DNA of 64,000 bases, taken from Colwellia sp. Its GTDB lineage: Bacteria; Pseudomonadota; Gammaproteobacteria; Enterobacterales; Alteromonadaceae. The DNA is taken from assembly GCF_013215345.1 (NCBI RefSeq), contig NZ_JABSOV010000011.1:19021-83020 (forward strand). Reading direction: 5' to 3'. The notes under the pieces are model-generated. The model saw nothing but the letters and a program-made list of their open reading frames with translations. It was not told the DNA's origin and did no database searches. This document shows positions 6,107-38,607 of this stretch, piece by piece (positions within the stretch are counted from its first letter, which is position 1; every line of letters begins with the position of its first letter). Made by a program: the position numbers and the translations under genes.

Positions 6107-6370
6107 TACCAAGTCCATTAAGTTTGTTCCCACTCAGAGCTTGCCAGCGTTTTGAGAACAAATAGAACTTTTTTTGCATATAGTCACTCTATATGAAAGA
6201 AATTTTATGCGGTTATCGAATGGCTGGAAAACTCCCAAGGGCGAGTTTAAAAGGCTGACATGCTGCGTTATTGATTTTGATAAGGGAATAACCATTATCT
6301 ACAATCAATGCCTGGCCTCTGAGCCTTTTAACTCTCGCTGAATTGGAAGAAACTTATTGGAATTGGTATA
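6104..6370. repeat. Terminal-inverted-repeat element, family A, copy 1
   Basis: About 265 bp bounded by TAATACCAAGTCCATTAAGTT on the left and its imperfect complement (AACTTATTGGAATTGGTATA) on the right. Internally it folds back on itself: GAGTTTAAAAGGCT pairs imperfectly with AGCCTTTTAACTC, and TTGATT with AATCAA. It has no reading frame. Near copies lie at 8183-8450 and, partly diverged, at 49623-49891. It is best described as a MITE-like or REP-like non-coding element. Confidence 0.8.
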
Positions 6371-8182: not shown

Positions 8183-8450
8183 TAATACCAATTTGACTAA
8201 GTTTGTTCCCACTCAGAGCTTGTCAGCGTTTTGAGAACAAATTGAATTTTTTTGCATATAGTCACTCTATATGAAAGAAATTCAGTGCGGTTATCTAATC
8301 GCTGAAAATCTCCCGCAGGGCGAGTTTAAAAGGCTTACATGCTACGTTATTGATTTTGACAATGGAATAACCATTCTCTTCAATCAATGCCTTGCCTCTA
8401 AGCCTTTTAACTCTCGCTGAGTGAGAAGAAACTTAATCAAAATGGTATAA
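8183..8450. repeat. Terminal-inverted-repeat element, family A, copy 2
   Basis: About 268 bp starting TAATACCAATTTGACTAAGT and ending with the imperfect complement ACTTAATCAAAATGGTATAA. It is very similar along its full length to the copy at 6104-6370, with scattered substitutions only. It has the same internal fold-back and no coding potential. It lies between the rplI terminator and a minus-strand terminator. Confidence 0.85.
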
Positions 8451-8636: not shown

Positions 8637-8670
8637 TAGACAGTTTGCCGTGTAATGCCACCGAAATGTT

Positions 8671-8700
8671 ACACTTTTCTATCACATGTTGATACTTTTC
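8671..8700 (-). promoter_or_regulatory. AraC-type direct-repeat operator, site A
   Basis: On the minus strand GAAAAGTAT (8700-8692) and GAAAAGTGT (8679-8671) are repeated with 21-bp periodicity. The same pair occurs at 16953-16982, 20927-20956 and 25196-25225. Its orientation points toward the small minus-strand transcript, while the plus-strand halogenase gene starts about 170 bp away on the other side. TTACACGGC occurs on both flanks, pointing outward on each strand. Confidence 0.65.
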
Positions 8701-8872
8701 TGTTTGTTTTTACACGGCGACTTTTTCCGGTAAATTAGTGTTTAATCCAAGCTAATTACTTTGGTTTTATCGGTATTAATATCATCAGTTACAGTTGTTT
8801 TTTAAAGGCTTTATAGTAGAGTGTAGGTTAGTTTATTTCTTTATTCCGTCGTGGTTGGGTGTTAAAAACATT

Positions 8873-10384
8873 ATGTCTGGTGCAATTGAAAAAGTTGTTA
8901 TTGTTGGTGGTGGAACTACCGGTTGGATGGCTGCGGCAAGCTTATTAAAATATGCGACAGATAAAAATATTACCGTCACTTTAGTTGAGTCGCCAACCAT
9001 TAGTACCGTGGGTGTTGGTGAAGCGACTATTCCTAATATTGTCGATTTCAATCGTAACTTAGGCATTGATGAAGTTGAGCTGATCAAAGCAACTCAAGCG
9101 ACCTTTAAGTTAGGTATTGAGTTTGAAGATTGGTATAAAAAGGGAGAGCGATTTTTTCATCCTTTTGCCGATTACGGCTTGAAAGTCGATAATGTTGAGT
9201 TTCATCATTACCTTAACAAGCTCAATCAGCAAGGTACCAAAGTTGATTTAGAAGATTACAGCTTTGCTTGTGCGCTAGCCAAACAGGGAAAATTCGCCCA
9301 ACCTAACCCAAACCCGAGCAATCCACTTGCTGAATACTCATACGCTTATCATTTAGATGCAGTATTGTACGCTAAATTTCTCTGTGATTTTTCAGTGAAA
9401 AAAGGCGTTGAACATATTTTAGCCAACGTAACTGAAGTGAACTTAAATAACGACTCAGGTTTTATTGAATCACTGACTTTAGATGATGGTCGTCAGATCA
9501 ACGGAGATTTATTTATCGATTGCTCTGGTTTTAAAGGGCTGTTAATTGAAGGTGCTATGGGCATTGAACTGGACGATTTAAGCCAGTGGTTACCGTGTGA
9601 TAGTGCCGTAGCAGTGCAAACTACACTTGTGGGAAATCCTAACCCGTATACCCGAGCCATCGCAAAAGATTCAGGCTGGCAATGGCAAATACCATTACAA
9701 CATCGTATGGGCAATGGTTACATTTATAGCAGTAAATTTACCGATGATAATGCCGCGCAAGAGAGTTTACTTGCCAGTATTGACGGTAAAACCATCAATG
9801 AGGTACGCAAGTTTTCTTTGCCGGTAGGGCGACGTAAAGTTACTTGGCATAAAAACTGTTTTGCGTTGGGCTTGGCGGCTGGGTTTCTTGAGCCATTAGA
9901 GTCATTGGGAATTTCATTAATTCAAACGGGCATTGCTAAGTTATTAACCTTCTTTCCTGATAAATCGTTTAATAGTGCCGATATTGCCGAAGTAAACCGT
10001 TTACAAAATTGCGAGTTAGACCGCATTGTTGATTTTCTAGTGCTGCATTACAAACTCAGCGCCCGTGATGATACTGAGTTTTGGCGTTATTGCCAGAACA
10101 TGGCAATTCCCGATAGTTTAGCGCATAAAGTTGAGGTGTTTAAAAGCCAAGGACATGTGGTGATGCATGATCATGAATCTTTTGAACGCGCCAGTTGGTT
10201 GTCGATGTACCACGGCTTTAATGTGGTGCCACAGCGCTACGATGTGCGTATTCAAAATGTTGATGTGAGTGTTATTGAAGCTAAGTTGGCGCAAATGCGA
10301 AACTCAATGGCGGGCGCTGCTCAGCAGGCGATGTCGCATCAAGACTTTATCAGTAAACATTGCCGATCGCGGTGTGAACTATAG
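8873..10384 (+). CDS. Flavin-dependent tryptophan-halogenase-like protein (copy A)
   Basis: 503 residues from ATG 8873; upstream in-frame codons add only non-conserved sequence. The FAD site GGGTTGW is at residues 12-18. The catalytic-type lysine of flavin halogenases is present at Lys79 (ATFKLGIEFEDW), the same number as in PrnA. The WxWxIP motif (GWQWQIPLQHRMGNG) and FLEPLES follow. These residues normally guide HOCl or HOBr from flavin to the substrate, so the protein looks catalytically competent. Its real substrate is unknown, and free tryptophan is only the family name. It is convergent with two paralogues at 10465-13551. No Shine-Dalgarno sequence is evident. Confidence 0.85.
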   Translation: MSGAIEKVVIVGGGTTGWMAAASLLKYATDKNITVTLVESPTISTVGVGEATIPNIVDFNRNLGIDEVELIKATQATFKLGIEFEDWYKKGERFFHPFADYGLKVDNVEFHHYLNKLNQQGTKVDLEDYSFACALAKQGKFAQPNPNPSNPLAEYSYAYHLDAVLYAKFLCDFSVKKGVEHILANVTEVNLNNDSGFIESLTLDDGRQINGDLFIDCSGFKGLLIEGAMGIELDDLSQWLPCDSAVAVQTTLVGNPNPYTRAIAKDSGWQWQIPLQHRMGNGYIYSSKFTDDNAAQESLLASIDGKTINEVRKFSLPVGRRKVTWHKNCFALGLAAGFLEPLESLGISLIQTGIAKLLTFFPDKSFNSADIAEVNRLQNCELDRIVDFLVLHYKLSARDDTEFWRYCQNMAIPDSLAHKVEVFKSQGHVVMHDHESFERASWLSMYHGFNVVPQRYDVRIQNVDVSVIEAKLAQMRNSMAGAAQQAMSHQDFISKHCRSRCEL

Positions 10385-10416
10385 TTTTTTAGTGTACTTA
10401 TGCTATGGAATATAAA

Positions 10417-10454
10417 AGAAAACGCGCTGCTTAGTTGATAATTAGCGCGTTTTT
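10417..10454. terminator. Bidirectional terminator between convergent halogenase genes
   Basis: AAAACGCGCT (10419-10428) and AGCGCGTTTT (10444-10453) form a stem with A-rich and T-rich flanks on both strands. It can end both the plus-strand copy A transcript and the minus-strand copy B/C transcript. Confidence 0.85.
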
Positions 10455-10464
10455 AGTGTTAACT

Positions 10465-11982
10465 TTATTCAGGTGTGGGTGCTGGGCAGTATTTCTGTAA
10501 AAACTCATCATGGCTGGGCTGTTTTTTCACCACCTCAACAATGGCATTTTTACCAGCCGTTAAGCTCATCTTTAATTTTTTATAATCTAAAGCATCCACT
10601 GTTGGGTTATACCCAGCTGGCATTATACCCATGCCGTCAAATACCGCATACCAACTGGTGGGCTGAAATAACTCTTCAGCACCCGGTTTTAAGCCGCCAG
10701 CAACCTTGAAAAAATCAATGCGTTGTTGCAAACTTGTTGGAATAGCCATGTTTTGACAATAAAGCCAAAATTCGGTGTCATCGCGCTCAGTAGTGCAGTA
10801 ATGTAAAATCAAAAAGTCACGGATCTCTTCATAGTCAGCGCGCACGCGGCGATTTAATTCATTAACCAATGTTTGATTGCAGTTTTTGTCAGGAAACATA
10901 CGCACAAAAAAGGCCAGTGTTTTTGATACTAAATGAATCGCGGTCGACTCTAGGGGCTCAACAAAACCTTGCGCTAAACCTAACGCCAAACAGTTTTTAT
11001 TCCATGCTTGTTTGCGCATGCCCGTTACAAAAGGGATCACTTTTGGTTTGGTAAGCGGCTCACCTTCAATGTTGGCTAATAATGTCGCAATGGCTTCTTC
11101 GTCACTGCAATATTTATCACAAAAAACATAACCGTTGCCCGTTCTATGCTGGAGTGGTATGCGCCATGTCCAGCCAGCATCTTGCGCGCGTGACGTTGTA
11201 TAAGGAGTGATTTCGCCAGTATTTTTAGTTTGCACTGTTACCGCTCGGTTGCAGGGTAAATATTCAGACCAATCGTCATAACCTGTGTTCAAAATCCCCT
11301 CTATTAATAGCCCTTTAAAACCCGTGCAATCAATAAAGAAGTCGCCAGTTATTTGCTGACCATCTTTTAAGGTAATGTTATCAATAAAGCCGCTATCATT
11401 TTTGGCAACTGACTCTACATGACCTTCAATACGCTGTACGCCAATACTTTCTGAGAATTTACGCAGATATTGCCCCACTAATATCGCATCTAAATGCAAA
11501 GCATAATGGGCGCTTGCTAGTGGTGTACCCATCGCATTAAACGGTAAGAAAAAGCGGTTGTGATCAGACAGGACTGACTCAGGTGAGTGCGCCATTAACG
11601 GGGTTTTATCACCTTCTGCTTTTGACTTTAACCAACACTGATAAAAATCATGTCCATCAATTTCCTGCCCTAATACGCCGAAAGGATGAAAATAGGCATG
11701 ATCTTTTTTACGCCAATTTTCAAAGCGAATACCCCATTTAAAACTCGCTTGAGTGGCTTTAATAAATTCAGCTTCATCTATGCCTAAGCTACGAATGGTA
11801 TCAAGAAGCGGCGGTATAGTGGCTTCACCGACACCAATAATGCCGACTTCTTTAGACTCAACTAGCGTAATGTTAACATCGCTATCTTTAAATATATTAC
11901 CCAGTGTGGCGGCAGCTACCCAGCCAGCGGTTCCACCACCAACAATAACAAAATTTTTAATGGCATCTTGTGTGACTTGCAT
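10465..11982 (-). CDS. Flavin-dependent tryptophan-halogenase-like protein (copy B)
   Basis: A 505-residue paralogue of copy A. GGGTAGW (residues 15-21) binds FAD. Lys82 sits in ASFKWGIRFENW at the catalytic lysine position. GWTWRIPLQHRTGNG gives the WxWxIP motif, and FVEPLES is conserved. It lies 33 bp downstream of copy C on the same strand, so the two are probably cotranscribed. A GGAAA lies shortly before the ATG. A soluble, FAD/FADH2-dependent halogenase or related flavoprotein is likely. No flavin reductase partner gene is visible in the window. Confidence 0.85.
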   Translation of the reverse strand: MQVTQDAIKNFVIVGGGTAGWVAAATLGNIFKDSDVNITLVESKEVGIIGVGEATIPPLLDTIRSLGIDEAEFIKATQASFKWGIRFENWRKKDHAYFHPFGVLGQEIDGHDFYQCWLKSKAEGDKTPLMAHSPESVLSDHNRFFLPFNAMGTPLASAHYALHLDAILVGQYLRKFSESIGVQRIEGHVESVAKNDSGFIDNITLKDGQQITGDFFIDCTGFKGLLIEGILNTGYDDWSEYLPCNRAVTVQTKNTGEITPYTTSRAQDAGWTWRIPLQHRTGNGYVFCDKYCSDEEAIATLLANIEGEPLTKPKVIPFVTGMRKQAWNKNCLALGLAQGFVEPLESTAIHLVSKTLAFFVRMFPDKNCNQTLVNELNRRVRADYEEIRDFLILHYCTTERDDTEFWLYCQNMAIPTSLQQRIDFFKVAGGLKPGAEELFQPTSWYAVFDGMGIMPAGYNPTVDALDYKKLKMSLTAGKNAIVEVVKKQPSHDEFLQKYCPAPTPE

Positions 11983-12015
11983 ACGTTTTTCCAGTGATAG
12001 TAGGTTGGGTTTAAA

Positions 12016-13551
12016 TTAAAAATTGCTTTTATATTGGCAATGTAGCGTTAAAAACTCATGGTGACTTGGCGATTTATCGACTTGCGATTGCACCATCGTA
12101 CGCATTTTTTCTAGGTGTTCAGTTAAGTAATCAGCGTCCATCTTGTCTGCACGTTGATCATAACGGTCAGGCATAAAGTTAAAACCATTAAATATAGCTA
12201 ACCAACTATCACTACCAAATATTTCCCATGGGTAGCGCACGATAGTACCGTCTTGTTTGAATTTGTGCATTTTATCTTGCAAGGTTTTCGGGATATCCAT
12301 ATCACGATAATACTGCCACATAGGACTATCAGTGCGCTGGTTTATTTTATAATGCAAAATAATAAAGTCGCGTACTCGTTCATATTCTTGCGCATTAACC
12401 TCGTTAAAGCGTTCGACATCTTGCACATTATATTCAGGCAAGCTTTTATTAAAGGTTAATAATATTTTATCAATCGCGGTTTCAACTAAGGCAATGCTGG
12501 TGCTTTCTAATGGCTCTAAAAACCCTGAGGCTAAACCAACAGCAATACAGTTTTTATTCCATGCCTTTTTACGTCGACCTGGGGTAAAAGAAAAACTGCG
12601 TGGTTCATGCAGTAATTCACCATCAATATTGCTTAATAAGCTTGCTTTGGCGTCTTCATCGCTACTGTATTTACTGCTGTAAACATAACCATTGCCCATG
12701 CGATATTGTAATGGTATTTGCCATTGCCAACCGGCTTTTTGCGCTTGCGCTATGGTACAAGCTATTGGCGCTTGTGTGCTTCTACTTTGCACGGCAATGG
12801 CTCTGTCGCATAATAACCAGTGGCTCCAGTCGTCGTAACCTGTCTTTAATGCGCCTTCAATTAACAGCGCTTTAAAGCCCGAACAATCAATAAATAAATC
12901 CGCTGTTATATTGCGACCATCTTGAAAGGTTATGCTGTCGATGTCGCCCGTACCTTTGTTGATTTGAGCTTGCTCGATAAAGTTATCAACTATTTCTACC
13001 CCTTGTTTAACCGAGTAGTCTCGCATTAAATTGGCAAATAGTACGGCATCAAAATGTAAGGCCCAATCGAATACATCCAATTGACTTGTAGGCGTTTCTG
13101 CGGGAAAGAAGAATTTATTCTGCTGCGCTAAATTTACACCCAGCGAGTAATCACTTAAATCACTGGGGTGTTTTTTTTGTGCTTTAAGCCAGTAATGATG
13201 AAAAGGCACTTCTTTAGTTCCTTGACCAAATAAACCAAAGGGGTGAACAAAACTATTACCGTCACCTTGCCAGTCTTTAAATTCAATACCTAATTTACAA
13301 GTGGCATTGGTGGCTTTAATCACCTCTATATCGCTGAAACCGAGTTTTTTATAAAAACGGCGCAAGGTCGGAATAGTCGCTTCGCCGACTCCAATGGTAC
13401 CGAGTTGAGAGGATTCAACGACCGTGATTTTTGGCGTATGCTGGGGGAACTGTGTTTTAAAGTGATGACTCAGTGCTGCGGCTGTCATCCAGCCTGAAGT
13501 ACCGCCGCCAACAATGACCACAGATTTAACTAATTTAGAGCCAATATTCAT
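12016..13551 (-). CDS. Flavin-dependent tryptophan-halogenase-like protein (copy C)
   Basis: 511 residues from ATG 13551, chosen because AAGG lies seven bases before it; a GTG at 13572 without a binding site is the alternative. GGGTSGW gives the FAD site. The catalytic lysine is Lys86 in ATCKLGIEFKDW, where Cys replaces the Phe seen in the other two copies. GWQWQIPLQYRMGNG and FLEPLES are intact. The gene follows the TonB receptor on the same strand after a 230-bp gap that contains a terminator-like hairpin, so it may be expressed by read-through or from its own promoter. An ACACC/GGTGT inverted repeat lies near 13571-13590. Confidence 0.85.
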   Translation of the reverse strand: MNIGSKLVKSVVIVGGGTSGWMTAAALSHHFKTQFPQHTPKITVVESSQLGTIGVGEATIPTLRRFYKKLGFSDIEVIKATNATCKLGIEFKDWQGDGNSFVHPFGLFGQGTKEVPFHHYWLKAQKKHPSDLSDYSLGVNLAQQNKFFFPAETPTSQLDVFDWALHFDAVLFANLMRDYSVKQGVEIVDNFIEQAQINKGTGDIDSITFQDGRNITADLFIDCSGFKALLIEGALKTGYDDWSHWLLCDRAIAVQSRSTQAPIACTIAQAQKAGWQWQIPLQYRMGNGYVYSSKYSSDEDAKASLLSNIDGELLHEPRSFSFTPGRRKKAWNKNCIAVGLASGFLEPLESTSIALVETAIDKILLTFNKSLPEYNVQDVERFNEVNAQEYERVRDFIILHYKINQRTDSPMWQYYRDMDIPKTLQDKMHKFKQDGTIVRYPWEIFGSDSWLAIFNGFNFMPDRYDQRADKMDADYLTEHLEKMRTMVQSQVDKSPSHHEFLTLHCQYKSNF

Positions 13552-13680
13552 CAGATAACCTTGCTTTTTCACACCGATATCATGGTGTGTTTTGGGTGTT
13601 AAATTAAGTAATAAATCTATCAGGTAAGGTATGTAATTCTTGATTTAAAACAATATTAATTATTTAATAGTGATTAAAAA

Positions 13681-13713
13681 CAAAAAACGTCATAATTTCT
13701 TGTGACGTTTTTT
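13681..13713. terminator. Hairpin between the TonB receptor gene and halogenase C
   Basis: AAAAAACGTCA and TGACGTTTTTT form a stem flanked by A and T runs, working on either strand. For minus-strand transcription from the receptor gene it would reduce but perhaps not abolish read-through into the halogenase pair. Confidence 0.75.
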
Positions 13714-13781
13714 AATCAGTTTATATAAGCTAAGTAGCCTTAATAAAAGAACTACTTAGTAGAGCTTGTTTAACTTTTCAA

Positions 13782-16700
13782 TTAGAAAGTTACACGAGCA
13801 CCAACAGTCCAGCGCGCTTCATATTCGTTGCGGTACGCTTTTTGGTCTGAGAATTCAAGATAAGTCTGTTGAACTTCTTCCAAAATATTTGAACCAAATA
13901 CATAAATATCAGCATAGTCAGTTACTGAGTAAGTAGCACTGAAATCAAGTTGTGAATAAGTATCTTGATAAAGTGATTGACCGCCAACAGCACCTTGTGA
14001 GCCTTGCGTGATTAAACGCGGGCTACGAGAGTTCCATGCGAAACGTGTTGAGAACGACTCTTGCTCATACCATAAAACAAAGTTGTAAGTATCTTTTGAC
14101 ATGCCAACAAATGGTAAGTCACCGCCATTAACATCTTTGTTTTCTTGAGAACTATCAGTAAAAGTATAGTTAGCATCAATACCCATATTGTTAAGGAATG
14201 CAACATCCATAAAGTCACTAAAGGCAGCTTTAGCGCCTAATTCAAGACCGTTTACACTACCACCAGCGCCTTGTACTTGAGTAGTGAAAGGCCAAGGACC
14301 ACGTTTGATGCCATCTTCATCAGGCTCATCTACTAATATTTCACCGCCTTCGGTAAAGCTTTCGATATCAATGTTGAACGCTGAAACGAACATCATAGAA
14401 GCGTCGCCGTTATACCACTCAGCAGTTAGTGATAAGTTTTCTGAGCGCCATGGGTTCAAGCTTGGGTTACCCGTTAAGTTACCGTTAACTACGCGTAAAC
14501 AGTTACAGTCAGCATTAATTACTTTACCCACTGTTTTACCACCACCCCAACTTGCAAGATCTAACGACTGCATGTTTTTAGAGTAAGCACCACGGAAGAT
14601 AATATCATCAGTTGCAGCAACCGCTACGTTTAATGAAGGTAGGTAATCAGTGTAACTGCGATCAGTTACCGCATCACCAATATCAGGACCTAAACCAGAA
14701 TGTGGTAAGTTAGTACCTGTAAGGTTTTGCTTAACATAAAGGTCGGTTTCGATAACTTTTAAACCAAAGTTACCACTAACAATGCCTTGTTCGAAGTTAG
14801 CTTGTAAGAAATAAGTAAATTCGTTTAAACCTACATCGTAAGTTGCGCCACCATTTTCAGTACGTTGCACGTTACCAAAAGTATCTAGGTGGAATTGACG
14901 AGGATCACTAAAGTTACTTGGATCAATTGCCCACATGGTAGGAATACCTTGCACGCTACCAAAGTTAGAAATTTCGCTAACCGTAGTATGTTTATCTAAT
15001 GCCGTTGGCGCTAATAAAGTATAAGGAACCCAAGTACCTGCAGCAATCGTTTCGCCATCGTGTTCAGCATCTACTTCTAAGTATTCACCTGCAGCAGGGT
15101 TACCTTCACACGTTGATGTTGTATGGTATTGATCGACCGCTTTCCATTGCGCGATATCACAGCCATCACCAAAGGTAGAGGTATAAGTAAATTGGTCGTG
15201 ATCTACTTCACGTTCCATGTAACGAACACCAAAATCTACGCTAGTAATAAATGGCATATCATCAAATTCATAATTCCACTTAGTACTAAAAGTATTGATT
15301 TCAGCTCTATCGTCAGTATTACCTTCAGATGAGAATGCACCAACATGGTATGAATCTAAGTTACCCATGTAAGCGGCAACACTTTGCATACCTTGACCGC
15401 CGCCAACCATTTGATCGAAACCACTAAATACAGGGCTTTCACCTTGAGCATTGTAGCGAATTAAGAAATCAGCGTCAGCGATACCGCCGGGTGCGAATGT
15501 TCCGTAACAACCACCACTTTCACCAACAATTGTATCATCAGCACCACAGTTTTCTGTTTGGGTAAATTGACCAGGGCCTGTTACTAAACTTGTGTGATCG
15601 ATATTAAGCATATCGCCTTCACCGTAACCATGACGCATGCTTGACTCAGCACTTGCTCGTGTCATACGTACTTGACCTGTTAAGTTGCCGCCATTGTTGT
15701 AGTTTAATTCTAAGTTAAAGTTTTTCGAGGTTTCTTCGTTGTTGTTGACCTGAGTAAAGGTCTGCATACGCCAAGGTTTTAAGTTAAAGTCATTAACTGC
15801 GCCCCAAGCATTGCCTTCTTCATCGGTGAAAGTATCACCCGTCCAGCTATCGGCATTTGCTGGTAACGCATAGTCGTTAAATGAATGCCAACGGTTGTTT
15901 TGTGAGAAACCTTGACGGTTATTGAATCTGTCTTGGTTAGTGTAAAACGCATCAAATGTTAATTCGAAACCTTCACCTAATTCGGCTTGGAAAGAGAACT
16001 GGTAACCTTGACGTTCACGAGTTTCTTCTTTATTAAATGCAGCAAAACCTTGTGGTACTACGTGACGAACAGGGCCACTTTCTGGACCAGCTCCCCAAGT
16101 ATGACTGTTGTTTGCTGCGCCAATACCGCCATTTTCAGAGGTATCGAAGTAACCGTTATAATCGGTTGCTAACGTTACTTCTTGGGTAACGGCAGAAAAC
16201 AACACACCAAAACGGTCGCTGTTATAGCTTACTAAACCGTTTAAGTTTGGATCTACTTCTTGGCTAATAGAACCTTGAGTTACATCAGCACCAACGTTGA
16301 ATACCCAACCGCTGTCCATATCAAATGGGCGACGAGTATGTAAGTCAATTGAACCTGAAATGCCACCGGCAGTGCGGCTAGCTTCAGATGATTTATAAAC
16401 ATCAGCACCTGAAAATAATTGTGATGGTAAATCACCAAAGTTAGCACCTGATGAATCAATAGTGGTAGCACTTAAAAAGACTTCACCATTTAAAGTTGAG
16501 CCAACTTGAGGTAAACCACGTATAGCAATAGTACCACCTTCACCAGCGGTACGCTCTACTTGCACACCCGTAATACGTTGTAATGAATCAGCAATAGTAA
16601 CATCTGGTAACTTACCAATGTCTTCTGCAGCGATACCATCAACCTGTGAAGTTGCGAAACGTTTGCCGTTGATGCTGGCTTTAGTACTGCCACGGATACC

Positions 16701-16841
16701 AGATACTTGAATTACTTCAATATCGTCTTTATTTACTTCAGCAGCTTCTTCAGCGGCCATAGCATATGAGCTAACACCCGTTGAAAAAACTAGCGCAATA
16801 CTTGTTGATAACAAGCTCTTTTTAAAATTTTTATTTGGCAC
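13782..16841 (-). CDS. TonB-dependent receptor, Xanthomonas/Caulobacter oligosaccharide type
   Basis: 1019 residues starting at GTG 16841, supported by AAGGGTC upstream. A signal peptide ends near YAMAAEEA. A TonB-box-like DIEVIQVSGIRGS and a plug domain follow, with IADSLQRITGVQVERTAGEG and IAIRGLPQVGSTLNGEVFLS. The rest is a large beta-barrel ending in an aromatic residue (VGARVTF). The long plug signature and size match the TonB receptor class found in carbohydrate-utilisation loci of Xanthomonas and Caulobacter, rather than siderophore receptors. It would import an oligosaccharide, probably amino-sugar-containing given the neighbours. An AraC-type direct repeat lies 112 bp upstream in activating orientation. 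Confidence 0.9.
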   Translation of the reverse strand: MPNKNFKKSLLSTSIALVFSTGVSSYAMAAEEAAEVNKDDIEVIQVSGIRGSTKASINGKRFATSQVDGIAAEDIGKLPDVTIADSLQRITGVQVERTAGEGGTIAIRGLPQVGSTLNGEVFLSATTIDSSGANFGDLPSQLFSGADVYKSSEASRTAGGISGSIDLHTRRPFDMDSGWVFNVGADVTQGSISQEVDPNLNGLVSYNSDRFGVLFSAVTQEVTLATDYNGYFDTSENGGIGAANNSHTWGAGPESGPVRHVVPQGFAAFNKEETRERQGYQFSFQAELGEGFELTFDAFYTNQDRFNNRQGFSQNNRWHSFNDYALPANADSWTGDTFTDEEGNAWGAVNDFNLKPWRMQTFTQVNNNEETSKNFNLELNYNNGGNLTGQVRMTRASAESSMRHGYGEGDMLNIDHTSLVTGPGQFTQTENCGADDTIVGESGGCYGTFAPGGIADADFLIRYNAQGESPVFSGFDQMVGGGQGMQSVAAYMGNLDSYHVGAFSSEGNTDDRAEINTFSTKWNYEFDDMPFITSVDFGVRYMEREVDHDQFTYTSTFGDGCDIAQWKAVDQYHTTSTCEGNPAAGEYLEVDAEHDGETIAAGTWVPYTLLAPTALDKHTTVSEISNFGSVQGIPTMWAIDPSNFSDPRQFHLDTFGNVQRTENGGATYDVGLNEFTYFLQANFEQGIVSGNFGLKVIETDLYVKQNLTGTNLPHSGLGPDIGDAVTDRSYTDYLPSLNVAVAATDDIIFRGAYSKNMQSLDLASWGGGKTVGKVINADCNCLRVVNGNLTGNPSLNPWRSENLSLTAEWYNGDASMMFVSAFNIDIESFTEGGEILVDEPDEDGIKRGPWPFTTQVQGAGGSVNGLELGAKAAFSDFMDVAFLNNMGIDANYTFTDSSQENKDVNGGDLPFVGMSKDTYNFVLWYEQESFSTRFAWNSRSPRLITQGSQGAVGGQSLYQDTYSQLDFSATYSVTDYADIYVFGSNILEEVQQTYLEFSDQKAYRNEYEARWTVGARVTF

Positions 16842-16928: not shown

Positions 16929-16982
16929 GACCTTTCCTTTAGTGCAATAGTGACACTTTTCTATTATATCTAGATACTTTCC
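16929..16982 (-). promoter_or_regulatory. AraC-type direct-repeat operator (site B) and promoter of the TonB receptor
   Basis: On the minus strand GGAAAGTAT (16982-16974) and GAAAAGTGT (16961-16953) repeat at 21 bp. After 18 bases comes AAGGTCAAAAT, equivalent to the CAAAAT -10-like element at sites C and D. The predicted transcript start leaves a leader of about 75 nt before the GTG. Confidence 0.65.
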
Positions 16983-17300
16983 TATCGTTTATCGAGTGCA
17001 AATGTCGAACGCTGTCATTTTTGTTAGACGAAAAAATAATAGCGGAATCCAGTTGTTACTTGTATATACAGATATAAATAGAGGGTGGTGATTAAGCGCC
17101 TAAGTGGAATAAAAAATAACGACTAACAAGAGGGCAACATGTGTAAGGTAAAACTTGTGGTCAATATTCAGTTTACTCGTAAAAAGGTTAAAAAATAACT
17201 CAACGGGATCAAAATATATGCCCATTATTTTTGTAATACGCTTACGAAAATTTCCCTCATGAGCTAAGAGTTTGCTTATTCTGTTGATAATAATAAGCGA

Positions 17301-17509: not shown

Positions 17510-18379
17510 TTATAAAGGCGATGGATTTTTAATGCTTTCTCTAAACTCGGTCGGGGTAATGCCTTTCACCATCAAAAAATGTCGATTAAAATTAGATGCA
17601 TTATTAAAACCGCACTGGTCGCATATTGCTGAAATTAAAGTATTAGTATTAATCAATAGTTTACAGGCTTTTCCTATGCGTAATTGGGTAATAAACTGAT
17701 TTAAGGTTTTTTCGGTACGTTGTTTGAAAAATCGATGAAAGTGATTGGTGCTCATATGAGCAATTAAAGCCAAATCATCAGCTCTAATCACATCAGTATA
17801 ATGTTGGTAGATATAAGTAATGACGTTATCGAGTTTATCGACTGAAATGTCTGTTTTATTACTAAAGGTAAAAAAACTGCTTGATAAAACTTGGTAATTT
17901 CTATCATTAGCCATCAACGTTAATAGTTGAAGTAAAAGGATATACCTTTCAATAGGCTCGGCACTTACCATCGCTTTGAATAATATTAAGGATTGTTTGG
18001 TTGTAGTAGGGCTATATTCAATTCCCCGTAACGACAGCGTTAACATTTTAGCTAATACGGCCAATTCAGGGTTTAACCTAACTAAGTTATCTAACCAGAT
18101 TGCAGGGATTTGTGCGACATAGATGATTAAATTCTTTTCATTATTTATTGGCTTCGCTTGCCAACTGTGCGGCAAGTTTGGACCAAGTAAGACAAGATCT
18201 GCTTGATTATAATAACTAACGTGATCGCCTATATGTTTTGAACCTTCGCTATTTAACGTTAAGCAAATCTCATATTCAGTATGGTAATGCCAATTAAACT
18301 CCTTTAACGGCAGCTCAAAAACATCAAAGCGCCAAGAGCAATTATCTGAAGGGATCATTTTGCCACATTTAGGCTTCAT
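17510..18379 (-). CDS. AraC-family regulator 1
   Basis: A 289-residue protein. The N-terminal cupin-type sensor domain carries FNWHYHTEYEICLTLNSEG and LLGPNLPHSW, typical of sugar-binding AraC sensors. The C-terminal ~100 residues form two helix-turn-helix units (ADDLALIAHMSTNHFHRFFK and ISAICDQCGFNNASNFNRHF) ending in ITPTEFRE. It is divergent from the deacetylase gene and strongly paralogous to the regulator at 20039-20896. One or both probably bind the 21-bp-spaced repeats of the locus. The effector is probably an amino-sugar oligosaccharide, by context only. Confidence 0.9.
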   Translation of the reverse strand: MKPKCGKMIPSDNCSWRFDVFELPLKEFNWHYHTEYEICLTLNSEGSKHIGDHVSYYNQADLVLLGPNLPHSWQAKPINNEKNLIIYVAQIPAIWLDNLVRLNPELAVLAKMLTLSLRGIEYSPTTTKQSLILFKAMVSAEPIERYILLLQLLTLMANDRNYQVLSSSFFTFSNKTDISVDKLDNVITYIYQHYTDVIRADDLALIAHMSTNHFHRFFKQRTEKTLNQFITQLRIGKACKLLINTNTLISAICDQCGFNNASNFNRHFLMVKGITPTEFRESIKNPSPL

Positions 18380-18600: not shown

Positions 18601-18702
18601 AACTTGTCGATATATTCCGTTCTAAGATAGTTGCGTTCTCTAATGTTGATTTTAGAACACTATGATTACCAATGTTTTTTAACGTAATTTTGAGGAATGG
18701 AA

Positions 18703-19977
18703 ATGAAAATTAAATCCCTAACTTGTGCTATCAGTTTTGCTTTATTAGCCAGTACTTTTGCTGAAGCTAATGATAGAACTATCTATCTTACTTTTGATGA
18801 TGGTCCTATGAATGCGACACCAGCATTAATCGATACATTGAATAACGCTAATATTAAGGCAACATTTTATGTTAATGCATGGCACTTAGACGGTATTGCG
18901 GATGAAAATGAAGATCAAGCGCTTACTGCGCTTACTTATGCTTTGAACTCAGGCCATGTTATCGGTAATCATAGTTATGATCATATGGTGCATAACTGTG
19001 TTGAGGATTTTGGTCCAACGAGTGGCGCTGATTGTAATGCGACAGGAAACCACCAAATTAATTCGTATCAAGATCCCGTGTACGATGCCTCCATGTTTGC
19101 AAAAAACTTAACCGTACTTGCTTCATATATCCCTTCTATTACAAGTTATCCAAATTATAAAGGCAGTGTTTTAGCTCGCTTGCCCTACACCAACGGTTGG
19201 CGCTCAAGTACAGAACTAAAAGGTGACGGTTTATGTGCAACCTCGGATGATTTCAAGCCATGGGAGCCAGGTTATGTTTGTGACCCTGAAAATCCATCAA
19301 ATAGCTCTGCTGCTGGTATTGCGGTATCTAACCTTTTAGCGAACAGTAATTATTTGATTCATGGTTGGGATGTTGATTGGGCTCCTGAAAACTGGGGAAT
19401 TCCGTTTCCTGCCAATAGCTTAACAGAAGCCGATGTGTTTTTAAGTTATGTGGATTCTGCGATTAACGCTTGCACACCAGTTAGCATTAATCCGGTAAAC
19501 TCTAAAACACAAAACTTCCCATGTGGAAATTCTTTGCATGCAGATAAAGTGATTATTCTTACCCATGATTTCTTATTTGAAGACGGTAAACGAGGTCAAG
19601 GTGCGACATTAAATCTCCCTAAACTCGCTGAATTTATAACGTTAGCCAAAAATGCAGGTTATACCTTTGATACTATGGATAATTATGCACCAGAATGGCT
19701 AGAAGGGAAAAGTTATGAATCAGGTGATTATGTAACCTATTTGAATCGTGTCTATAAAGCAGAAATTAGCCATACAGCACAGTCAGATTGGGCGCCTAAT
19801 GCAAGTTCTAATTTATGGCTGCAAAGCACGCCAAGTCAAGTTTGGACTAATAATATGCGTTACAATCATGGTGATATTGTTACTTATATGGGCAAAGATT
19901 ATTTAGTTATCTCTGAACATGTCTCCCAAACAGTTTGGGTGCCAGATGCTACACCAACGCTTTTTAGTGAATTATAA
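18703..19977 (+). CDS. Chitin-oligosaccharide deacetylase-like CE4 enzyme with two chitin-binding modules
   Basis: 424 residues from ATG 18703, where GAGG has correct spacing (an ATG at 18697 is too close). A signal peptide ends near FAEA. The CE4 (NodB) domain shows all catalytic motifs: TFDDGP, NHSYDH, RLPYTNGWR, DVDWAPENWG and ILTHD. Two tandem CBM5/12-like repeats follow (WLEGKSYESGDYVTYLNRVY and YNHGDIVTYMGKDY). Length and architecture match the secreted Vibrio chitin-oligosaccharide deacetylase, which removes one acetyl group from chitobiose to make an inducer disaccharide. It is exported, and its product could be the AraC effector. Confidence 0.88.
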   Translation: MKIKSLTCAISFALLASTFAEANDRTIYLTFDDGPMNATPALIDTLNNANIKATFYVNAWHLDGIADENEDQALTALTYALNSGHVIGNHSYDHMVHNCVEDFGPTSGADCNATGNHQINSYQDPVYDASMFAKNLTVLASYIPSITSYPNYKGSVLARLPYTNGWRSSTELKGDGLCATSDDFKPWEPGYVCDPENPSNSSAAGIAVSNLLANSNYLIHGWDVDWAPENWGIPFPANSLTEADVFLSYVDSAINACTPVSINPVNSKTQNFPCGNSLHADKVIILTHDFLFEDGKRGQGATLNLPKLAEFITLAKNAGYTFDTMDNYAPEWLEGKSYESGDYVTYLNRVYKAEISHTAQSDWAPNASSNLWLQSTPSQVWTNNMRYNHGDIVTYMGKDYLVISEHVSQTVWVPDATPTLFSEL

Positions 19978-20038: not shown

Positions 20039-20896
20039 CTAACGATTAATATATAACTTACGAAACTGACTTGGTGTTAGTTCTTTAAACTGTAAGAAAC
20101 GCCGGTTGAAGTTAGAAATATTATTAAAACCACAGGTATCACTTATCGTAGTAACAGGCATTGTTGTATTAATGAGTAAAGAGCAAGCTTTACTAATGCG
20201 CAGTTGATTCACCAGTTCGGTGAAGGTTTGCTCAGTACGTTGTTTAATGAAGCGATGAAAGTGATTAGTGCTCATGTGTACTAATTGGGCAAGCACTTCT
20301 GCTTTTAGATTACTGGTGTAATGCTGATGTAAATGACGAATGATCTTATCGAGTTTATCAGTACTGGGATCTGAAGTAATGGCCACATTGTAACCTGAAC
20401 TCGATAATATTTGCGTATTGGTGTCAGTTGCCATCAGCTGTAAGATTTCTATTAAGCTAATAAAGCGTTGTGTCGGTGATGCTTTTGCCATCTTTTTAAA
20501 AATAGCAGTGACTTTTTTAGCGACGGTGGTGCTAAATTTTATCCCCCGTTGTGATAACTCTAATAAATGTTTTAGCGAGACTAAATCTGGCATGGCGGTA
20601 AGTTGTTCAAGCCAAAGCACTGGGATTTGTGCCACATAAACTTGTTGTGCTTTACCATCAAGTGCTTGGCTACTACACCAAGTATGCGGTAAATGAGGAC
20701 CGAAAAGGGTTAAATCAAAATCAGCATAGTTCTCAATATGGTCACCAACATACCTTTGACCATGGCTATTAAGTGTTAAAGCAATTTCATATTCAGGATG
20801 GTAGTGCCAGTTAAAGGGAATCTGCTCTAATTCATAAAGCCAATACCGCCAAGAAGAGTTTTCTGTTGGTAACACTTTTTCATACATTAATTTCAT
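20039..20896 (-). CDS. AraC-family regulator 2
   Basis: A 285-residue paralogue of the regulator at 17510-18379. The cupin segment is FNWHYHPEYEIALTLNSHG with LFGPHLPHTW. The DNA-binding half has KAEVLAQLVHMSTNHFHRF and ISDTCGFNNISNFNRRFLQF, ending ELTPSQFRK. It is divergent from the MFS transporter gene. A clear 21-bp direct repeat lies between them, 31 bp from its own start, so autoregulation is likely. With its paralogue it brackets the deacetylase gene. Confidence 0.9.
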   Translation of the reverse strand: MKLMYEKVLPTENSSWRYWLYELEQIPFNWHYHPEYEIALTLNSHGQRYVGDHIENYADFDLTLFGPHLPHTWCSSQALDGKAQQVYVAQIPVLWLEQLTAMPDLVSLKHLLELSQRGIKFSTTVAKKVTAIFKKMAKASPTQRFISLIEILQLMATDTNTQILSSSGYNVAITSDPSTDKLDKIIRHLHQHYTSNLKAEVLAQLVHMSTNHFHRFIKQRTEQTFTELVNQLRISKACSLLINTTMPVTTISDTCGFNNISNFNRRFLQFKELTPSQFRKLYINR

Positions 20897-20926
20897 ATTA
20901 TGTAGTTCTGCTTACCATGTTGAATA

Positions 20927-20984
20927 GAAAAGTATCATAGGATGGTTGAAAAGTGTAGCAATGGTTTTTTATTCACGGCAAAAT
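20927..20984 (+). promoter_or_regulatory. AraC-type direct-repeat operator (site C) and MFS promoter
   Basis: GAAAAGTAT (20927-20935) and GAAAAGTGT (20948-20956) repeat at 21 bp. ACGGCAAAATAAT begins 18 bases later, placing a CAAAAT -10-like hexamer at 20979. The geometry fits a class-II AraC activator whose proximal half-site abuts the -35 region. It lies in the araC 2/MFS divergent space. Confidence 0.7.
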
Positions 20985-21045
20985 AATTAAGTAATATTAT
21001 CTCTATGCTTAGGGGTAATTGATAATGAACATTAAGAGGTTAAAC

Positions 21046-22332
21046 ATGAAGAGTAATATAATCGCAGTGATTTTGGTTTTGGTGACCTTTTTTGCTATCT
21101 CATTTATCACTAATATTATTGGACCCTTATTTCCTTCTTTAGTAAAAGATTTTGACATCAGCTTAGCGGTTGCTGGCTTTTTACCGTTCTCCTTTTTTTC
21201 CGCTTATGGTGTAATGTCAATTCCTGCGGGTTTGTTGGTTGATAAGTTTAGCGAAAAACCGGTGTTGATTGGCGCATTTGTTATGTCAGCATTTGGCTCG
21301 TTATTGTTTGCACTTGTGCCAAGTTTTTTTATGGCGATGGCCTCATTGTTTTGCATTGGCACTGGCATGGCAATGTTACAAGTGGCGATTAACCCCTTAT
21401 TAAGAGTTTCAGCAGGAAAAGAGCATTTTGCTTTTTATTCTGTCTTAGCGCAGTTACTTTTTGGTGCGGCAGCGACCTTAAGTCCGCTGGTTTATAGTTA
21501 TTTAGTACAAGGTATGGCGGCAGGCGAAACATCAGGGCTTATTGGTTTGATGAACCATTTGGTGCCAAGCAATATGCCGTGGTTGTCTATGTATTGGGTT
21601 TTTGCTGCGGTGTCTGTGGTTATGTTAGTTTTTATTCTATTAATTAAACTGCCGAAAGTAACATTGACTGATGAAGAGTCAGTAGGGGGCTTAGCGATTT
21701 ATGCGCAGTTATTTAAAAACAAAACCGTTATTTTATTCTTCATCGGTATCGCTGCTTATGTTGGCACCGAACAAGGGGTTGCCAATGCAATTTCTCTTTT
21801 CTTAGAGCGTTATCATGGTTTGGATCCGTTAACCGTAGGCGCCAACACGGTCAGTGATTTCTGGTTGATGTTAACCTTAGGCTGCTTTTTAGGTTTGGCT
21901 TTATTGAAGGTTTTTGATAGCCGTTTAGTATTGAAAACATTCTCTCTAGGCGCATTTATTTCATTAACGTCTGCCTTATTTGGTAGCGCTGAGGTAGCAT
22001 TAATCGCTTTTCCGTTAGTGGGTTTTTTCTTGTCTATTATGTGGTCGGTTATCTTTTCGTTAGCACTCAATTCATTAGCTGATCATCATGGCTCATTTGC
22101 TGGGATTTTGTGTACGGGTATTGTTGGTGGCGGTTTAGCGACACCGTTAGTAGGGTTGTTGGCTGATTTAACCGGTGACTTACGTATGGGCATGATAGTG
22201 GTTTACATAACGTTAGCTTATATTTTTGCCATAGGTTTTTGGGCTAAGCCGTTAGTCAATAATAAAACTATTAACGTCTTTAAACGTGGCCAAAAAGCGG
22301 CCGATAATGCTAAGACGGCTGCTTCAAGCTAA
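21046..22332 (+). CDS. MFS sugar transporter (FHS/NagP-like)
   Basis: About 428 residues from ATG 21046 (AGAGG at good spacing); ATG 21025 is also possible. Twelve hydrophobic segments are visible. The GLLVDKFSEKPVLIGAF loop and AMLQVAINPLLRVSAG segment resemble the FucP-type (FHS) symporters to which NagP, the GlcNAc permease of Shewanella, belongs. A cytoplasmic basic tail (FKRGQKAADNAK) ends the protein. It sits between an AraC-controlled promoter and a GH20 gene 22 bp downstream, so it probably imports the monosaccharide or disaccharide released by that enzyme. Substrate identity is inferred from context. Confidence 0.8.
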   Translation: MKSNIIAVILVLVTFFAISFITNIIGPLFPSLVKDFDISLAVAGFLPFSFFSAYGVMSIPAGLLVDKFSEKPVLIGAFVMSAFGSLLFALVPSFFMAMASLFCIGTGMAMLQVAINPLLRVSAGKEHFAFYSVLAQLLFGAAATLSPLVYSYLVQGMAAGETSGLIGLMNHLVPSNMPWLSMYWVFAAVSVVMLVFILLIKLPKVTLTDEESVGGLAIYAQLFKNKTVILFFIGIAAYVGTEQGVANAISLFLERYHGLDPLTVGANTVSDFWLMLTLGCFLGLALLKVFDSRLVLKTFSLGAFISLTSALFGSAEVALIAFPLVGFFLSIMWSVIFSLALNSLADHHGSFAGILCTGIVGGGLATPLVGLLADLTGDLRMGMIVVYITLAYIFAIGFWAKPLVNNKTINVFKRGQKAADNAKTAASS

Positions 22333-22353: not shown

Positions 22354-25068
22354 ATGAAAAATATCATCCCAGCCTCGGCGCTGAGTGCCATTGCTTTGCT
22401 ATTAACGGCCTGTAATGGGGAAATGGAACCGGCTAAAACCGAGCAGTTAAAAGTAGAAGCAATAGCTACAGAGTCACCATTAACGGCTCAGCAACAATTG
22501 ACTGCTTTAGCTGAAAATTTGCAGGTTAAGTATCATTTTTTAAGTAATATTGAAACTGATTGCCCAGATCGTCATGGTGAAGTGGTTAAATATTGTTACA
22601 GTGCAGAAATACACTTAAGTTTGTCAGAAAATAGCCCAAATTATTTTACTGAAAATGAAGATTGGCAAATAAATTTTTCACAAGTGTATCCAAGTTATGC
22701 CAGTGAAAGCAGTGATTTCAATTTACAGCATTTAAACGGTGATATTCACCAAATCACTGCTAAAGCTGGCTTTAGTGGTTTTACTGCTGGTGAAATCAAA
22801 AAAGTAAAACTTTGGGTGAAAAGCACGTTAATAACAGAGTCTGAATTGATGCCCAACTATTGGTTATCAGCGACTGACTTATCACCAGCAGTAATTGTTA
22901 GTACCAAAACTAGCATAGATGCTGATACGGGTTTGGAACTGCAGCCGTGGGTAGCTCCTTTTACTGATATAGTGAAACAAATAAAGTCATCGCCTGATGA
23001 TATTAACCAGTATGCTTCAACGTCGTGGTTATATGACAATGAACCTAATCACCTTGAGTTAGGTGCACAAGCGATTGATTTAGCGATTATTCCTACGCCT
23101 AACTCTTTGAAAGTCACCGATGCTAAGTTTCGTTTAGATCTATCTTCAGGTATTAATGTTTCATTAATAGGGCTCGAGACAAAAGATATTGCTGCCGCCA
23201 CTGAGCGTTTAAGTTTTCTAGGCATAAAAGAGAGTGAAACCGGTATAGCGATAAATATTGTACTAAACGATGATAAAAAGCCGGATTGGCGTGCTGGCCA
23301 TTATCAGTTGGAAGTTAATGGCCAAGGCATTGATATTAATGCCCAAGACAGTAGCGGCGCTTTTTATGCATTGCAAAGTATCGCCAGTTTACTTACTTTA
23401 GGTTCTACTACACTACCGTTAGTGAAAATAGATGACCAACCGCATTATGACTATCGTGGTCAACATGTTGATGTGGCGCGTAACTTTCATTCGAAAGCGT
23501 TTATGTTTGCGCTTATCAAACAAATGTCAGCTTATAAACTCAATAAATTACATCTACATTTAGCAGAAGATGAAGGCTGGCGCTTAGCCTTGCCAAGTTT
23601 GCCTGAATTAACCCAAGTGGGTAGTAAACGTTGTTTAGATTTGAGTGATAAAACCTGTTTACAACCACAGTTGGGCGGCGCAGGTGTAACAGATAGTGAC
23701 GGTTTTTATAGTGTCGAAGATTACCAAGAAATATTGCGCTTGGCGACCAAGCACTATATTCAAGTGATCCCATCGCTTGATATGCCAGGGCATTCTCGTG
23801 CGGCTATTAAAGCCATGGAAGCGCGGTATCACTATTATATGAAACAAGAAAATGAGTTAGAAGCTAAACGTTATTTATTATCCGATTTTGATGATAAAAC
23901 GCAATATAGTTCTATTCAAAATTATAATGATAATACCTTAAATATTTGCATGGAATCGACCTATGCTTTTGTTGATCGTGTGCTTGATGATTTAAAACTA
24001 ATGCATGAGCAAGCAGGACACCCACTCGCACTTTACCATATTGGCGCGGATGAAACCGCAGGTGCATGGCTTGAATCGCCGGTATGCCAAGCACTTATTG
24101 CCGATAAAACCAATGAATTTGGTGATGCCAAACACCTTGGCGCGCATTTTATTGAACGCGTATCTCATATAGTGACTGATAAGGGTATTGCTGTTGGCGG
24201 TTGGAATGATGGTTTGAAAGAAACTGCAGCGACTAAAATGCCAGAGGAGGTGTATTCGTATATTTGGGATACATTACCTGGGGGGGCTCATAGGCAAGTA
24301 AGTGAGCAAGCACATCGAAATTGGAATATTATTTTATCAACACCAGATGTTTTGTATTTTGATTTTCCTTATCAAATCGATCCAAAAGAGCGTGGTTATA
24401 ATTGGGCATCAAGACGGGTAACAACACGATCATTGTTTAATTTTATGCCTGATAACTTACCTATTCATGCAGAGTTTCGCCTTGATACTTTAGGTAAAGG
24501 CTTTACCAGTAATGATGAAGTACAACATGACCAAACGGGCAAAGTTATCCATCAGCCGTTACCTAAAGGTTTTACCGTTAAAGGTATTCAAGGGCAGTTA
24601 TGGAGTGAAACTGTGCGTAGTGATAATCAGGCTGAGTATATGATTTATCCAAGGCTACTGTCATTGGCGGAACGAGCTTGGCATCAAGCGGACTGGCAAG
24701 TGCCATATAATTATTCAGGGCAGGTTTTTACTAAAGAGACAGGCGTTTTTACTGAACAAGCAAAACAACAGCGCGATCAGCAGTGGTTAAATTTTTCACG
24801 AACGTTAGCGGAAAAAGAATTACCCAAGCTTGACCTTGCTGGTGTTTTTTATCGTCTGCCAACGGTTGGTGCTAAAGTTATTTCGGGTAAGCTTAATGCC
24901 AATGTTGCCCTTAAAGGCTTGCCAATAGAATATCGCCAGCTGGGAGAAAATCAAGCAGCTTGGTTGCCATATAAAATACCAGTTACCGTGACTTTACCCA
25001 TTGAAATACGTACTCGCACTACCGACAAAAAACGTGCTGGCCGCACCATGACATTGACGAAAAAGTAA
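22354..25068 (+). CDS. GH20 beta-N-acetylhexosaminidase (chitobiase), lipoprotein
   Basis: 904 residues. The signal ends in a lipobox (LLLTAC, Cys20), so the mature enzyme is membrane-anchored. In order it has a chitobiase N-terminal carbohydrate-binding domain (about 45-190), a GH20b domain (about 240-360), and the catalytic TIM barrel (about 365-780) with RGQHVDVARNFH and the Asp566-Glu567 pair in YHIGADETAGAW. A C-terminal CHB_HEX_C-like domain ends the protein. The Asp-Glu pair supports substrate-assisted hydrolysis of terminal GlcNAc. It follows the MFS gene by 22 bp, in the same operon. It would convert chitobiose-type sugars to GlcNAc outside or within the periplasm. Confidence 0.95.
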   Translation: MKNIIPASALSAIALLLTACNGEMEPAKTEQLKVEAIATESPLTAQQQLTALAENLQVKYHFLSNIETDCPDRHGEVVKYCYSAEIHLSLSENSPNYFTENEDWQINFSQVYPSYASESSDFNLQHLNGDIHQITAKAGFSGFTAGEIKKVKLWVKSTLITESELMPNYWLSATDLSPAVIVSTKTSIDADTGLELQPWVAPFTDIVKQIKSSPDDINQYASTSWLYDNEPNHLELGAQAIDLAIIPTPNSLKVTDAKFRLDLSSGINVSLIGLETKDIAAATERLSFLGIKESETGIAINIVLNDDKKPDWRAGHYQLEVNGQGIDINAQDSSGAFYALQSIASLLTLGSTTLPLVKIDDQPHYDYRGQHVDVARNFHSKAFMFALIKQMSAYKLNKLHLHLAEDEGWRLALPSLPELTQVGSKRCLDLSDKTCLQPQLGGAGVTDSDGFYSVEDYQEILRLATKHYIQVIPSLDMPGHSRAAIKAMEARYHYYMKQENELEAKRYLLSDFDDKTQYSSIQNYNDNTLNICMESTYAFVDRVLDDLKLMHEQAGHPLALYHIGADETAGAWLESPVCQALIADKTNEFGDAKHLGAHFIERVSHIVTDKGIAVGGWNDGLKETAATKMPEEVYSYIWDTLPGGAHRQVSEQAHRNWNIILSTPDVLYFDFPYQIDPKERGYNWASRRVTTRSLFNFMPDNLPIHAEFRLDTLGKGFTSNDEVQHDQTGKVIHQPLPKGFTVKGIQGQLWSETVRSDNQAEYMIYPRLLSLAERAWHQADWQVPYNYSGQVFTKETGVFTEQAKQQRDQQWLNFSRTLAEKELPKLDLAGVFYRLPTVGAKVISGKLNANVALKGLPIEYRQLGENQAAWLPYKIPVTVTLPIEIRTRTTDKKRAGRTMTLTKK

Positions 25069-25132: not shown

Positions 25133-25195
25133 TTGATCATGTTATTTATATTATCAATAATTTAGTTTGTATTCTAACGGACAAGAACTGTCAGT

Positions 25196-25253
25196 GAATA
25201 GTATTGATATTTGATAGGAAAGTATCTCAGTGTTTGTTTGTTTAAGGCAAAAT
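25196..25253 (+). promoter_or_regulatory. AraC-type direct-repeat operator (site D) and ROK kinase promoter
   Basis: GAATAGTAT (25196-25204) and GGAAAGTAT (25217-25225) are 21 bp apart. The proximal half lies in GATAGGAAAGTATC, identical over 14 bases to site B. AAGGCAAAATAGT begins 18 bases later, as at site C. The predicted start leaves a leader of about 75 nt. Confidence 0.65.
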
Positions 25254-25333
25254 AGTGTTATCAAATATTCCTAATAACAAGTAAAAAAGCTGATTTTTTC
25301 GACTTGTTATATTTTATAACGATACGGTTTTTT

Positions 25334-38343: not shown

Positions 38344-38607
38344 TTAGTAATGCGGTGGTGGTGGCTCAACGTCGTCTATATCATCTGATAAGCTACCAGC
38401 ATCTTTAAGACGATTAGCGACTAATTGAATTTGATGTTTCAGCTCTGAAATTTCATGCTGATGGGCGGCTAGCTCTTCACTTAGCTGTTCAATTACATCA
38501 TCTTGAAAAACGTTACGTGATTCTAAGGCGTCAACACGCTCTTCAAGCTGCTGAACATAGTTAGTTTTCGAGCTTTTAGCGGTTAGGGGGATTTCGGCAT
38601 TGGCCAT
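38344..38607 (-). CDS. slyX: SlyX coiled-coil protein
   Basis: 87 residues with a strong heptad pattern (VQQLEERVDALESRNVFQDD and ELAAHQHEISELKHQI) and a proline/tyrosine end PPPPHY, which is a SlyX hallmark. The function is unknown. Its start overlaps the end of the WD40 lipoprotein gene by 25 bp in a different frame, so it is translationally coupled to that gene. Confidence 0.9.
   Translation of the reverse strand: MANAEIPLTAKSSKTNYVQQLEERVDALESRNVFQDDVIEQLSEELAAHQHEISELKHQIQLVANRLKDAGSLSDDIDDVEPPPPHY

Follow-up and report, generated by a model that had tools for sequence, protein, structure and literature searches.

Three flavin-dependent halogenases with a shared putative operator beside a TIGR01782 TonB-dependent receptor in an amino-sugar locus

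The flavin-dependent halogenases PrnA, RebH, PyrH and Thal use free tryptophan as substrate, and their genes are located in natural-product clusters. A different type is represented by BrvH of Brevundimonas BAL3 (PDB 6frl) and Xcc4156 of Xanthomonas campestris (PDB 6y1w), which halogenate indoles and not free tryptophan, prefer bromide, and feature an open active site for which larger substrates, perhaps peptides, have been proposed (PMC5945002, PMC7336383). In vitro, BrvH converts indole to bromoindole with a low activity of 2.5 mU/mg, and a second halogenase gene adjoins its own (PMC5945002). The lanthipeptide tryptophan halogenase MibH, 26% identical to Xcc4156 (PMC7336383), is cited in PMC5945002 as having an open pocket and as a precedent for peptide substrates. 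TonB receptors are not mentioned in the papers on this type of halogenase, that on BrvH included (PMC5945002, PMC7336383, PMC8269204), and our search of the open literature, with older Xanthomonas and Caulobacter receptor papers outside its scope, returned nothing on point about a link between halogenases and these receptors.

Here, we analyzed a stretch of 64,000 nucleotides (the window) from a marine-type bacterium in which three halogenase genes, A, B and C, lie next to such a receptor and to genes for the use of amino sugars. The features of the locus are listed below, G028 being the related genome used for comparison.

8670 to 8701, minus strand: AraC-type direct repeat AGAAAAGTATC-N10-AGAAAAGTGTA, upstream of halogenase A and inverted relative to the gene
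8873 to 10384, plus strand: halogenase A (PF04820, 503 aa), with K79, E343 and Leu at the position of the halide-site Thr
10465 to 11982, minus strand: halogenase B (PF04820, 505 aa), with K82
12016 to 13551, minus strand: halogenase C (PF04820), with K86, nearest to BrvH (52%); alternative start GTG at 13572
13681 to 13712, minus strand: hairpin with T-run between receptor and C, possibly a partial terminator, unlisted in the consensus scan
13782 to 16841, minus strand: TonB-dependent receptor, TIGR01782, 1019 aa, 82% identical to its G028 orthologue
16952 to 16983, minus strand: AraC-type direct repeat AGGAAAGTATC-N10-AGAAAAGTGTC, upstream of the receptor
17001 to 17019, minus strand: AATGACAGCGTTCGACATT, with an exact copy upstream of the G028 receptor
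17510 to 18379, minus strand: AraC-family regulator 1
18697 to 19977, plus strand: polysaccharide deacetylase (PF01522) with two CBM5/12, chitin-oligosaccharide deacetylase-like
20039 to 20896, minus strand: AraC-family regulator 2, a paralogue of regulator 1
20926 to 20957, plus strand: AraC-type direct repeat, between AraC regulator 2 and the MFS gene
21019 to 22332, plus strand: MFS sugar transporter, FucP/GluP-like
22354 to 25068, plus strand: GH20 beta-hexosaminidase with chitobiase domains
25195 to 25226, plus strand: weaker copy of the AraC-type repeat, upstream of the ROK gene
25304 to 26260, plus strand: ROK-family sugar kinase

The first-pass annotation had described three active-looking flavin halogenases, and its description holds as far as sequence can tell: the three genes are intact open reading frames whose products match PF04820 with 560 to 591 bits over the entire model in a profile search, and an alignment confirmed that all of them keep the motifs GGGTxGW, GVGEATIP, WxWxIP and EPLES together with the catalytic Lys at the positions originally given (79, 82 and 86; 87 in C when the codon before the ATG at 13551 is counted). 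To this we add that the residue after EPLES, which belongs to the halide site, is Leu instead of Thr in A and in its orthologue; of 183 aligned sequences, only 3 show this replacement. Selection maintains all three copies, as indicated by dN/dS values against G028 of 0.08 for A and 0.06 for B and by a pN/pS of 0.24 for C, whose synonymous sites are saturated. In each protein the FAD Rossmann motif comes right at the start, with no evident signal peptide before it, for which reason all three are taken to be cytoplasmic. Relatives of halogenase B are also encoded in 82 phage records (31 to 44% identity among the matches listed), many of them from cyanophages and two of them unannotated human-gut contigs.

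Our comparison with solved structures places A, B and C in a halogenase type whose structure is known and of which they are ordinary representatives. By sequence, their nearest relatives among those structures are BrvH, 9luq and Xcc4156, the second best being 9luq, the tryptophan halogenase of the marine gammaproteobacterium Pseudoalteromonas L11. The fold comparison was carried out with the AlphaFold model of halogenase A (pLDDT 92.7), which superimposes on BrvH and Xcc4156 with TM scores of 0.95 to 0.96 (0.96 for Xcc4156) and an rmsd of 1.4 Å, versus 0.88 to 0.91 for tryptophan halogenases. BrvH, the closest solved structure to all three, has every one of the motifs, a short lid loop and an open pocket, although its identity to A-C is about 40 to 52% and it differs from A, where Leu occupies the position of the halide-site Thr. 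Xcc4156 shares the fold and the open site but has Asn at the second halide position, and its bromination has been measured whereas A-C are known from sequence. PrnA, RebH, PyrH and Thal have the catalytic core in common with A-C but possess a long substrate lid. The long tryptophan-binding lid motif (the Trp4 motif of tryptophan halogenase groups A and B, defined in PMC8269204) is absent from A, B and C in the alignment, and the alignment over the loop suggests a short lid loop and an open pocket as in BrvH. The pocket residues ATIP, HPF, F437, S441 and W442 (numbering of A) are common to A, B, C and BrvH, and the same aromatic-binding residues occur in most of the 183 relatives, 161 of which have the Lys, both Trp and the Glu intact. 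The earlier expectation of a pocket unlike that of dedicated tryptophan halogenases is thus supported, by sequence for A-C and by the model for A: the pocket is of the BrvH/Xcc4156 kind.

What is new here is that the link between receptor and halogenase, initially noticed as simple adjacency, is systematic. The receptor of the window scores 469.6 bits against TIGR01782, whose curated cut-off is 310. The same genome harbors seven strong PF04820 genes in four loci, each adjoining a full-length TIGR01782 receptor, and two more TIGR01782 receptors without halogenase on contig C135. Of the 82 PF04820 halogenases in 21 relatives, 70 have a TIGR01782 receptor no farther than 5 kb away and 67 no farther than 4 kb, the latter a distance for which roughly 2 to 5% would be expected; the remaining 12 have no TIGR01782 receptor on the same contig, and several are located at contig ends. 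All 32 halogenases situated at most 500 bp from a receptor are on the receptor strand. The 14 relatives with a TIGR01782 match above the cut-off are exactly those with strong PF04820 genes, and in a thinner class-wide sample strong PF04820 genes were present in all three genomes with the receptor as opposed to 2 of 111 without it. Across Proteobacteria, receptor and halogenase are at most 3 kb apart in 66 of 80 named loci (from Caulobacter, Sphingomonas, Microbulbifer, Alteromonas, Massilia and others), and 45 of the 80 hold at least two halogenases; annotated plasmid records independently contain the same pairs. Seen from the receptor, 50 of 122 in the relatives (about 41%, fragments counted) are linked, and linkage requires 9 changes on the receptor tree versus 30.7 for shuffled labels. 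Linkage follows receptor lineage, which shows a stable partnership and is not proof of joint function, since the receptor and halogenase genes are physically joined.

The amino-sugar setting proposed at the outset was likewise recovered, with the PF01522 deacetylase with its CBM5/12 modules and GH20 accompanied by the MFS transporter, the ROK kinase and the two AraC regulators; an HGSNAT-type (NagX-like) protein was also confirmed in this chitin/GlcNAc locus. The other three halogenase loci of the genome have different surroundings: a beta-glucan locus with GH1, GH3 and GH94, an alpha-glucan locus with a pullulanase and a YgjK-type glucosidase, and a locus with glucokinase, a sugar transporter and FecR. 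The association is therefore independent of sugar type. The suggestion that the enzymes act on a glycan is not borne out, as the same enzymes occur at chitin, beta-glucan and alpha-glucan loci with their aromatic-binding pocket residues kept. A sugar is an unlikely substrate, since the receptors serve different sugars and a single chemistry would have to suit many of them. Elsewhere in the window we observed a WD40-repeat protein (bacterial beta-propeller; 38583 to 39572, minus strand), unrelated to the locus, and a short similar sequence that recurs between genes at 6213 to 6308 and 8295 to 8387 (minus strand) as well as in a relative (L044, 166 to 261), possibly a dispersed repeat.

Receptor, C and B follow one another on one strand, with about 33 bp between C and B, while A converges on B and has an upstream region of its own of 800 bp, behind a gene that we take from its sequence to encode ribosomal protein L9. 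By comparing upstream regions with G028 we found the AraC-type repeat, with the consensus AGAAAAGTATC-N10-AGAAAAGTGTM. Allowing at most one mismatch, it occurs three times in the 4.24-Mb genome, each time in this locus: once ahead of the receptor, once ahead of halogenase A and once ahead of the MFS gene. A control search of the same 4.24 Mb with the reversed pattern gave no hit. Because the receptor and A sites had contributed to the consensus that then scores them, the support that can count as independent is that of the MFS sites, of the sites in G028 and of the genome-wide rarity. G028 has two sites, one before the orthologous receptor, whose cassette contains C, B and A, and one before an MFS-GH20-ROK operon on another contig (83, 70 and 68% identical to the window proteins, respectively); the repeat is missing upstream of the G028 orthologue of A. 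A shared putative operator hence precedes member genes of the amino-sugar regulon in the window as well as in G028, and because the G028 sites are on different contigs, the halogenase cassette and the sugar operon would form one regulon even when separated. Co-regulation with the receptor, the point on which the first-pass annotation had staked its reading, is thereby predicted, the same repeat preceding halogenase A, the receptor and the MFS gene. The two AraC paralogues next to the receptor are the obvious candidate regulators, and AATGACAGCGTTCGACATT (17001 to 17019) looks like the site of a second regulator. Co-transcription of C and B with the receptor may be partial, given the T-tailed hairpin in the 230-bp gap between receptor and C; G028 has a hairpin of other sequence at the same place.

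When we inspected halogenase loci elsewhere, SapC (PF07277), Cupin_8 and DUF6445 emerged as recurrent neighbors, none of which is present in the window locus. In the 21 relatives, a TIGR01782 receptor or halogenase is no more than 5 kb away from 33 of 48 SapC genes, from 12 of 13 strong DUF6445 genes and from all 12 strong Cupin_8 genes (examples: SapC at L037:10260-10973 and L039:8443-9168; DUF6445 at L039:7690-8397, L097:11495-12250 and L120:5222-5926). In the DUF6445 alignment, H-x-D, a distal H and an R are invariant, presumably the residues of 2-oxoglutarate/Fe(II) oxygenases, and Cupin_8 keeps HxD and the distal H. A sequence comparison of DUF6445 with the PDB gave no credible match, and the SapC AlphaFold model (pLDDT 90) matched no PDB structure, nor was there a sequence match. 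These companions can occur alone, as seen in the relative G002, where a TIGR01782 receptor (C39:16241-19782) lacks a halogenase but lies 288 bp from a Cupin_8 gene. In addition, a dead halogenase copy is present in 16 foreign loci, often alphaproteobacterial ones, as the second halogenase of receptor operons with three or four (among them L101:11161, L099:11461, L126:11488, L064:11524, L114:10259, L088:3083, L089:11501, L132:6727 and L117:8385), and a further one is the second of two halogenases in the relative G039. The dead copies are full length but have lost the FAD motif and the Lys, usually also the Glu or part of WxWxIP; 15 of the 17 group in a single clade made up mostly of dead copies, and dN/dS for two pairs was 0.25 and 0.45. 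Such a conserved dead paralogue suggests a non-catalytic subunit and a halogenase set working as one unit.

Taking these results together, we propose, with a probability of roughly 0.55, that A-C are co-regulated and halogenate an aromatic target shared by these receptor systems. They would be FADH2-dependent enzymes of the BrvH/Xcc4156 type, accessory in the cytoplasm to one outer-membrane glycan receptor and controlled together with it by an AraC-type regulator, the inducer probably being chitin-derived amino sugars. Reduced FAD from a general reductase would react with O2 and a halide, bromide probably being preferred to chloride; the resulting hypohalous acid would then be passed by the catalytic Lys and Glu to an electron-rich aromatic ring in the open pocket. 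The target would not be a sugar but an aromatic group, most likely indole or phenol as part of a molecule bigger than free tryptophan. Counting against this proposal are the Leu at the halide site of A, the failure to find a PF01613 flavin reductase and the missing repeat before the G028 orthologue of A. Also weighing against it are the partial circularity of the consensus, the hairpin between receptor and C, and the negative outcomes, described below, for a target site in the receptors and for a precursor peptide. With regard to the reductase, the earlier observation that none is encoded nearby was right and, as far as the PF01613 family is concerned, extends to the whole assembly (95.5% complete).

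It is tentatively conceivable that the enzymes instead make a small halogenated aromatic, such as a bromoindole-like signal or antibiotic, released during feeding, the linkage reflecting co-induction with the nutrient. The co-regulation with sugar uptake and the bromoindole formed by BrvH in vitro (PMC5945002) would agree with this; however, the linkage concerns one receptor family, applies specifically to 50 of its 122 receptors counted and follows receptor lineage, no biosynthetic or export genes were found among the neighbors examined, and the weak activity of BrvH on indole argues against it. That the targets are aromatic groups on the imported glycan, for instance phenolic esters or aryl glycosides that are modified or detoxified, appears very doubtful: the sugar loci are indeed coupled to the receptor and carry glycoside hydrolases, but chitin and alpha-glucans have no typical aromatic group and their loci have the enzymes nonetheless, with the same pocket residues across sugar settings.

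We also consider it quite improbable that A-C are flavin oxidases or monooxygenases that have lost halogenation. In favor of the earlier suggestion of non-halogenating oxidases, A has lost its halide-site Thr, related operons contain fully dead copies and the assembly gave no PF01613 match; otherwise little speaks for it in the case of A-C, as their Lys, Glu and WxWxIP are intact, the Lys, both Trp and the Glu persist in most relatives as counted above, and the close relatives BrvH and Xcc4156 do brominate (PMC5945002, PMC7336383).

Within the preferred reading of an aromatic target shared by the receptor systems, a protein or peptide fits the open pocket and the JmjC-like partners. One version, which we regard as unlikely, is that the halogenases together with SapC, Cupin_8 and DUF6445, companion proteins known from loci elsewhere, constitute a cytoplasmic toolkit: prior to export, the receptor or a protein partner would be chemically modified on side chains, aromatic or otherwise, and the dead paralogues would serve to bind the substrate. 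A comparison of linked and unlinked receptors revealed no residue tracking the halogenases; as to a receptor-specific aromatic site, only the plug Tyr (VYKS) clearly differed, and it fails to track linkage in independent pairs. A RiPP halogenase system resembling MibH was rejected, since MibH belongs to a precursor peptide system whereas no precursor gene recurs near enzymes of the A-C type, and no small-ORF family recurs in more than three loci.

We think that the receptor partnership, the shared operator, the oxygenase companions and the dead paralogue are the interesting part of these systems, and with them the question of the substrate becomes testable. Linkage, operator and partner enzymes point to a place and time, namely at or near one receptor while the cells are induced by the glycan that matches it. 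Should the target prove to be a protein, bacteria would have a novel type of protein modification coupled to the uptake of nutrients.
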